Shown piece by piece: positions 2,656 through 6,997 of a stretch of 6,997 nt of DNA. The stretch comes from an uncultured Thalassospira sp. GTDB taxonomy: Bacteria; Pseudomonadota; Alphaproteobacteria; Rhodospirillales_A; Thalassospiraceae. The notes beneath the pieces were generated by a model that made no database searches, was not told the DNA's origin, and saw nothing but the letters and a program-made list of their open reading frames with translations. The DNA is taken from positions 1-6,997 of the forward strand of contig CAMPHD010000174.1 of NCBI GenBank assembly GCA_946885765.1, in the 5' to 3' direction. Both the position numbers and the translations under genes were made by a program. How positions within the stretch are numbered: the stretch's first letter is position 1; the number at the start of each line of letters is the position of its first letter.

Positions 2656-6304
<3,649 letters not shown>

Positions 6305-6314
6305 GCGACATCAA

Positions 6315-6382
6315 TGTGAATTGACTCATAAAACTGGAAACGCGACACATAAATTTAGAAGCTGTGACGCATAAAATTAGAA
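6315..6382. mobile_element. Putative terminal end of a Tn7-like transposon, inserted just after gyrB
   Basis: The stretch starts TGTGAATT (6315-6322) and then runs into three tandem repeats that begin GACTCATAAA (6323), GACACATAAA (6344) and GACGCATAAA (6366). As I recall it, the Tn7 end has the same plan: TGTG, eight terminal bases in all, then 22-bp TnsB-binding repeats starting GACAATAAAG. Vibrio type I-F CRISPR-associated transposons have TGTTGATA followed by repeats with CCATAAATTGATA. The end is therefore probably recognised by a TnsB/TniA-class DDE transposase. The bases just outside, ATCAA (6310-6314), would be one copy of a 5-bp target duplication. The other end and the tns genes lie outside the window. 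IS21-family or Tn552/Tn5053-type elements, which also have TGT ends with internal repeats, are the alternatives. Confidence 0.55.
6323..6382 (+). repeat. Three tandem 17-bp repeats, 21-22 bp period, likely transposase sites
   Basis: The copies are GACTCATAAAACTGGAA (6323-6339), GACACATAAATTTAGAA (6344-6360) and GACGCATAAAATTAGAA (6366-6382). Copies 2 and 3 match at 15 of 17 positions, 1 and 3 at 14, and 1 and 2 at 13. The consensus is GACNCATAAAATTAGAA. The starts are 21 and 22 bases apart, two helical turns, so bound proteins would line up on one face of the DNA. All three point the same way, away from gyrB. The copy nearest the terminus is the most divergent. The spacers are only four or five bases, which excludes a CRISPR array. 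Confidence 0.85.
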
Positions 6383-6604
6383 CGGGCAGAGTAAGTCCAA
6401 TCGCGTGATACGAACTAGCTCTGCCTGTACATCATCGTTGAGATATGTTGCAACGAGACATATCGATAACGCCCCCCCATACACAACGCTTAGCCTGTTT
6501 CTGAGTCATCTCAGTGATTCGCTTCTTGGGGGATTATTTTTAGCCAAAATAGTAATTTGTTGAAGGTTTTGCTTCCTCAGTGAGGTTTATTCACGTCACT
6601 ATAT
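6383..6604. other. Non-coding, structured region inside the putative mobile element
   Basis: I see no gene in this stretch, but several inverted repeats. ACGGGCAGAG (6382-6391) pairs with CTCTGCCTGT (6419-6428) as ten pairs with one G-U and a 27-base loop, directly next to the third terminal repeat. GATATGT (6442-6448) pairs with ACATATC (6458-6464), flanked by CGTT (6436-6439) and AACG (6468-6471), making a longer interrupted stem. CTGAG (6501-6505) pairs with CTCAG (6510-6514). This small stem sits between seven C (6472-6478) and five G (6528-6532), and an ATTATTTTT tract follows the G run, so the whole could act as a terminator. CCTCA-G-TGAGG (6575-6585) is a perfect odd-centred palindrome. 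The region is clearly poorer in GC than gyrB. No promoter with two good boxes was found for the downstream gene; TATATG at 6600-6605 is a weak -10 candidate. Confidence 0.5.
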
Positions 6605-6644: not shown

Positions 6645-6977
6645 GTGATGGGTAAATGGAGCTGGCGGCACAGCGACTGGCCCAATTTCACGTGGGATAG
6701 GCAGCAGACCCAAGCCTTAATCACAAAAGCACTTACTGAGAACATTGTTGCGTCTTTTGCAATTGAGGGCGAGCACCTCGACGGAAATGCAGTTTCCAAC
6801 GAATTCGAAAGAGTTTTTGTTTCGACTGACTGCCAAGAGCGAGCAAGGAATGTAGGTGTTAAGGAAGCGAACGCTGCTGCTTTAATGTCTGACGTTTTTA
6901 ACGATTCTTCTTCAAAACTTTCTTTTTATCGTTTGGGGTCCTTGAATAGCCCCTGGAATTGTAGACACCCGGTTTGA
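6645..6977 (+). pseudogene. Fic-family protein remnant (DUF4172-type N-terminus), interrupted
   Basis: Fic proteins transfer AMP or other groups to target proteins and often serve as toxins. The reading frame starts at GTG 6645 or ATG 6648 (109 aa from the ATG, used for numbering). WSWRHSDWPNFTWD (4-17) fits the start of the DUF4172 domain found before many Fic cores. SFAIEGE (36-42) fits the Fic inhibitory motif [S/T]xxxE[G/N], here Ser36, Glu40 and Gly41, which blocks the active site in class II Fic proteins. Between these blocks about 30 residues usual for the family seem to be missing. Residues 67-96 still resemble the family, but the match stops near Leu96, and the last residues read into an apparent IS end (from 6943) before a TGA. 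The catalytic HPFxxGNGR motif is absent, so the product should be inactive. Base composition is AT-richer than the core genes. The family call is from remembered motifs and is fairly sure; calling it a pseudogene depends on the IS reading. Confidence 0.6.
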
Positions 6978-6997
6978 TCAGATTTGTCGTCTTTCGA
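6943..6997. mobile_element. Probable left end of an IS3-family insertion sequence, runs off the window
   Basis: The stretch starts TGAATAGCCCCTGG (6943-6956), then AATTGTAGACACCCGG (6957-6972). This fits IS3-family terminal repeats as I recall them: TG at the tip, a CCC block about eight bases in, then AAT and GACAC (for example IS3 and IS2). It begins where the Fic similarity breaks off. No transposase frame is visible in the 55 bases available, and the second end and target duplication are beyond the window. It could instead be unrelated sequence fused by a deletion. Confidence 0.45.

Follow-up and report, generated by a model that had tools for sequence, protein, structure and literature searches.

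A probable Tn7-like transposon end just downstream of gyrB in a Thalassospira genome, and related elements among Pseudomonadota

The 6,997-nt stretch analysed here (the window; contig CAMPHD010000174.1 of an uncultured Thalassospira sp.) contains a 68-bp repeat array (6315-6382) whose first base lies 10 bp 3' of the stop codon of gyrB (6302-6304). This array is very probably one end, the gyrB-proximal (R) one, of a Tn7-like element, from a lineage whose TniQ/TnsD protein of about 620 amino acids targets a spot just past the gyrB stop codon. In related genomes tnsA, tnsB, tnsC and tniQ stand behind the same end, which supports the proposal of a Tn7-like end made in the initial annotation.

As shown in Table 1, the array opens with TGTG at 6315 within the eight-base terminus TGTGAATT, followed by three direct repeats of the GACNCATAAA type at spacings of 21 and 22 bp; the layout first described from the letters of the window was thus confirmed. 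A motif built from the window's own three repeats, GACNCATAAANTTAGAA (repeat 1 differs from it at two positions), has three matches in the window when up to 3 mismatches are allowed, while shuffled sequence gave 0.10 on average. None of 200 dinucleotide shuffles gave three matches, and chance repeats were rejected. For the pattern TGTG-N4-GACNCATAAA, with at most 1 mismatch, one shuffle in 200 did as well as the window. The final 200 residues of the window GyrB are 98-99% identical to those of five Thalassospira genomes. From the gyrB stop through the end into the element, the window is 79.5% identical over 435 bp to genome G016 (genomes, contigs and loci are cited below by G, C and L numbers).

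Table 1. Features of the window around the gyrB-proximal end
Feature	Position	Strand	Basis
gyrB, intact, putative attachment gene; stop TAA at 6302-6304	3845-6304	+	GyrB Pfam domains
ATCAA, presumed 5-bp target duplication adjoining the R end; partner copy would fall outside the window	6310-6314	.	position only; equivalent 5-mers duplicated in G016, G001, G003
R end: TGTGAATT terminus and three putative TnsB sites	6315-6382	+	found at the boundary of complete elements in G016, G001, G003
Putative TnsB site 1, GACTCATAAAACTGGAA	6323-6339	+	motif match
Putative TnsB site 2, GACACATAAATTTAGAA	6344-6360	+	motif match
Putative TnsB site 3, GACGCATAAAATTAGAA	6366-6382	+	motif match
Hairpin directly inside the R end, where Thalassospira relatives have terminator-like hairpins; no T-run	6383-6427	+	-20.2 kcal/mol, z -4.08
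Second hairpin (C run pairs with GGGGG), then T-rich tail ATTATTTTT; terminator-like	6473-6541	+	-20.7 kcal/mol, z -2.41
5' part of Fic/DUF4172 gene, first cargo gene; 24 residues fewer than in G016, interrupted by insertion	6645-6942	+	domain match, G016 alignment
One end of an IS3-family element inside the Fic gene, extending beyond the window	6943-6997	.	98.2% identical across 55 bp to elements of the IS3 family from two Thalassospira plasmids

The intact element of G016 is 16,952 bp long and is flanked on both sides by a perfect duplication of AGGTG. It comprises, in order, the R end, a Fic gene, ORF325 (an open reading frame on the minus strand), tnsA, tnsB, tnsC, tniQ, a type I restriction-modification set and an inverted far (L) end; TnsA has 215 amino acids, TnsB 667, TnsC 336 and TniQ 624. 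G015 has the corresponding empty site, exact and uninterrupted. A 6,189-bp copy in G001, internally deleted and with a truncated tnsB, has ATGAC on both flanks, and G027 and G029 have empty sites matching this insertion. The copy in G003 (28,195 bp, CGTGT on both flanks) has tnsB split across two frames, and its locus encodes proteins with the Pfam domains TnsA-like N, rve with Mu-transpos_C, TniB, and TniQ with HTH_17. Perfect 5-bp duplications were therefore found in these three of the five elements delimited on both sides. The ends of the elements in G016, G001, G003 and G012 are inverted, TGT...ACA, the R ends with two to three clear repeats and the L ends with a terminal repeat plus further, more degenerate ones. 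The inverted far end closing with ACA, which the initial annotation had proposed to look for, is thus present in related genomes, together with 5-bp duplications. At locus L004 the end is followed inward by Fic, an ORF without known function, a gene for a TnsA-like protein and the first part of tnsB. The Fic gene of the window resembles its counterparts in the G001, G003 and G016 elements.

These elements bear directly on two other explanations of the array, both of which we rejected on the strength of complete elements and empty sites. That the array is the end of an unrelated transposon (IS21, IS481 or Tn552 type), there by chance, is extremely improbable: TGT termini are common to many elements, and the NCBIfam models for IS481, IS3 and IS21 do score on TnsB, but far below their cut-offs, and this end delimits elements that encode TnsA, TnsB, TnsC and TniQ, including the complete one of G016, at a spot occupied in 15 of 29 genomes. 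An istAB pair or another transposase within this end, which had been named as a contrary sign, was not found; the complete elements carry tnsABC-tniQ. We give just as little credit to the idea that the gyrB 3' region holds a regulatory array of the host, made up of iterons or regulator sites. Helically phased repeats do follow gyrB in many relatives, some of them without tns genes, but exact empty sites in G015, G027 and G029 have no array, and the 5-bp duplications and the inverted copies at the other end of the elements also speak against it.

At some loci more than one element is present. The G003 element sits between gyrB and a second R end, and G030 has only this second-type end at gyrB, with the same flank as in G003, from which we infer that the younger insertion in G003 took the gyrB-proximal place. 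G012 carries two tandem elements of 62,308 and 11,293 bp; only ACT is shared at the junction between them, and the outer flank is TTGAC. Junctions of an L end directly with another R end were seen in G003 C12, G012 C1 and G002 C11 (L068, L069-L072, L077). Such tandem junctions suggest serial insertion at one site.

The kinship of the transposition proteins was judged against solved structures. TnsB scored 306 bits to TnsB of Tn6677 and only 104 bits to that of Tn7, and TnsC found its best solved match in Tn6677 (142 bits), with no Tn7 TnsC among the matches listed. In the alignment of G016 TnsB to Tn6677 TnsB, D (veidht), D (vtdng) and E (ver.fg) are retained, which we take to be the catalytic DDE residues. 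The best match of the TniQ profile, at 85 bits, was TniQ of 7u5d, presumably an I-F3 TniQ. The predicted structure of TniQ is of moderate quality (pLDDT, predicted local distance difference test, 69.9; pTM, predicted template-modelling score, 0.38). In Foldseek all seven matches below E 0.001 (4e-7 to 1e-4) were I-F3 TniQ chains, with template-modelling scores of only 0.2-0.3. The C-terminal half of the model has repeated helix-strand units behind the core, whose small matches, of excisionase and BldC type, were not significant; passages of PMC10293859 describe tails with several helix-turn-helix units in TnsD-like, protein-guided target selectors. A Foldseek search with ORF325 returned nothing at E < 0.001.

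Tn6677, an I-F3 CRISPR-associated transposon (CAST), is thus the source of the best-scoring solved TnsB and TnsC. Unlike such CASTs, the elements described here have a long TniQ and gyrB as their site, and the Cas6f/Csy4 family (PF09618) was found in none of 17 genomes (an E. coli control was positive; Cas7f, Cas8f and CRISPR arrays were not searched for). The gyrB-type elements are therefore CRISPR-less relatives of I-F3 CASTs and not CASTs, as judged from the Cas6f search and the solved-structure scores. Like Tn7, they have a 5-bp duplication, TGT...ACA ends with several TnsB-type sites, and genes that run inward from the R end in the order tnsA-tnsB-tnsC-target selector, and they insert immediately downstream of a conserved gene, with the R end on the side of that gene. 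They differ from Tn7 in their target, which is glmS in Tn7.

Among 29 Thalassospira genomes, 15 have an R end 11-23 bp 3' of the gyrB stop. In all, a TGT end was located 3-23 bp past the gyrB stop at 28 loci (median 12), and gyrB was left unbroken. With 2 mismatches allowed, the end pattern gave 34 matches in 17 Thalassospira genomes, which we read as 15 gyrB R ends, 8 far (L) ends, 3 second R ends abutting an L end and 8 matches elsewhere; some of these lie on contigs without gyrB, namely the L ends of G007 and G002 and, in G002, also the second R end. R-type ends of the same family also lie away from gyrB at L075, L076, L090 and L094, some with a terminator-like hairpin just inside as judged by eye. 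TniQ of the gyrB lineage (77-100% identity) was found in 5 of the 29 genomes, in G007 on a separate contig, and five further genomes gave only weaker TniQ matches.

The same spot past gyrB is used repeatedly across Pseudomonadota. TniQ profile searches covered 317 genomes of the order (E 1e-40 or better), 385 of the class and 398 of the phylum (both E 1e-30 or better) and returned 11, 3 and 11 TniQ-carrying genomes, 23 distinct ones in all. In 14 of these 23 (G001, G003, G012, G016, G288, G091, G061, G153, G156, G713, G1047, G1023, G898 and G927) tniQ and gyrB share contig and strand within about 24 kb, and all 14 have a repeat-bearing TGT end 3-14 bp past the gyrB stop, the repeats of G713, G1047, G1023, G898 and G927 being identified by eye. 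Two more, G170 (C9, L147) and G1003 (L168), have related tnsABC-tniQ elements next to parE, recognised as such by eye and because its match to GyrB is weaker. The G170 end lies 3 bp past the parE stop, and a further end follows gyrB on another contig; G1003 has two TniQ genes, and Cas6f was absent from both genomes. In G007, TniQ and gyrB are split between contigs. In Azospirillum argentinense Az39 (NZ_CP007794.1) a TniQ-like gene (tblastn, 25.8% over 99% of the query) lies about 4.6 kb downstream of gyrB, and a TGT end is found 7 bp beyond the gyrB stop codon, an offset read by eye. On the TniQ tree, gyrB-homing labels needed 4 changes against a shuffled mean of 8.2, a value as low being reached in 2 of 500 shuffles. 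A single clade of gyrB-homing TniQ was not borne out by the tree, whose deep forks are weak and which has several long branches.

The pattern of terminus plus two repeats was also scanned over the 84,980 species genomes of genome_contigs. Eleven stretches matched, and in 7 of them the end came right after gyrB: five from Thalassospira, one from a Rhodospirillales metagenome-assembled genome (MAG) and one from Curvivirga. The match in Treponema (L005) was rejected as an end, being a tandem repeat. Similar TGTG-GAC repeats were seen in 8-kb stretches without gyrB from Curvivirga (L012) and the MAG SI074_bin150 (L013, L014), with no tns genes noticed there. When the array was compared with plasmids, phages and E. 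coli genomes, no transposon-end match was found, and the match in IMG/VR (L001) was a chance match within a phage gene.

Hairpin positions in Thalassospira differ between genomes with and without the R end, in a terminator scan run across loci without shuffled control. Of the 14 genomes without it, 13 have a terminator-like hairpin whose first base is 25-49 nt from the gyrB stop (in G028 the distance is 174 nt). In 14 of the 15 carriers the start of such a hairpin is no more than about 20 nt from the last repeat that remains. The start is at 38-42 nt where there is one repeat, at 58 nt where there are two and at 79-104 nt where there are three; G011, G013, G022 and G030, which retain one repeat, also retain the hairpin. 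From these positions, insertion in Thalassospira appears to separate gyrB from its terminator, for which the R end would supply a putative replacement.

Several observations weigh against the reading of the array as the end of a gyrB-targeting element. The window contains neither a transposase gene nor a far end, ATCAA is unpaired within it, and its Fic gene is broken. The two tandem elements of G012 lack perfect duplications, and 8 of the 34 pattern matches lie away from gyrB, unexplained by gyrB-type elements. TniQ is linked to neither gyrB nor parE in 6 of the 23 genomes (G573, G638, G736, G962, G014 and G027); in G736 it is on a different contig from gyrB, and in G014 and G027 the TniQ element lies about 1 kb past rpoD, as judged by eye. 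The terminator scan run across loci failed in the window, at its T-run test, in G002 and at 6 of the 7 R-end loci outside Thalassospira (G005 passed); a separate, simple consensus scan of the window found no terminator. Lastly, 10 of the 15 Thalassospira R-end carriers are without TniQ of the gyrB lineage. The initial annotation had held that the same repeats after gyrB in relatives without any insertion would speak against a transposon end; this occurred in part, in those 10 genomes, but because intact elements and exact empty sites mark the array as an element boundary, we read R ends without TniQ as orphan or decayed ends.

The window itself may hold such an orphan. On this account the origin is the same and the remainder of the element is gone, the end persisting as a terminator-bearing 3' flank of gyrB; we consider this a real possibility, somewhat short of even. 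The carriers without TniQ are consistent with it, as are the four genomes that keep one site plus the hairpin and the shortened and interrupted Fic gene of the window. On the other side, the window retains three sites, 560 bp of interior and a Fic gene like that of the G001, G003 and G016 elements.

If the array is the R end of a gyrB-targeting element, TnsB would bind the three end repeats, and most likely an array of helix-turn-helix-like units in the TniQ C-terminus would read the conserved gyrB 3' end. The window GyrB ends in NLDV and ParE of G170 in DLDV. TnsC may then recruit the ends, paired by TnsAB, to a position 3-23 bp beyond the stop codon, so that gyrB is kept intact, and in Thalassospira the hairpins just inside the R end might restore the termination separated from gyrB by the insertion. 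A wider proposal, which we regard as unlikely, is that a CRISPR-less Tn7 lineage related to I-F3 homes to the shared gyrB/parE 3' end via a TniQ winged-helix array, carries a replacement terminator in its R end (at least in Thalassospira) so that occupancy is cost-free, and leaves orphan R ends that act as gyrB terminator and, through their TnsB sites, as target immunity. We lowered its odds because of the six failed terminator scans outside Thalassospira. G003 and G012, which have a second element between gyrB and an older end, speak against the immunity part, since an old end does not always block insertion.

Known Tn7-like attachment sites include glmS, parE, tRNA genes, yhiN and comM, according to passages of PMC11406308, which also describe Tn7017, with an I-F3 TniQ, as having a TniQ/TnsD aimed at parE, the gyrB paralogue. 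No description of gyrB as such a site was found in the titles and abstract openings of the Creative Commons-licensed literature searched, and other papers or supplements may mention it; the main texts of PMC8649781 and PMC10293859 contain neither gyrB nor gyrase. The suggestion of an undescribed branch is partly right: we did not find the landing site in print, but the nearest solved TnsB and TnsC come from I-F3 CASTs. Judging from locus numbering, an element in Pseudomonas putida HB3267 may start right after gyrB. It is a Tn7-like transposon, B479_00025-00140, and the passages of PMC4731212 that describe it do not name gyrB as the attachment site. A protein-guided landing site at the essential gyrB, beside the window's replication-gene cluster, extends the set of Tn7-like attachment sites, and the gyrB- and parE-linked relatives form a natural series for how TniQ/TnsD switches target between paralogues. 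A replacement terminator within the end, if true, would explain low-cost residence in the 3' flank of an essential gene.

Inside the R end, the window preserves the 560 bp of element interior along with all three repeats. Its copy is decayed at least in the first cargo gene, a shortened Fic gene that an IS3-family element interrupts. Thalassospira also has a second Tn7-like lineage, whose tnsABC-tniQ genes lie about 1 kb past rpoD (named by eye); it was seen at L172, L174 and L023 of G014, G027 and G007.
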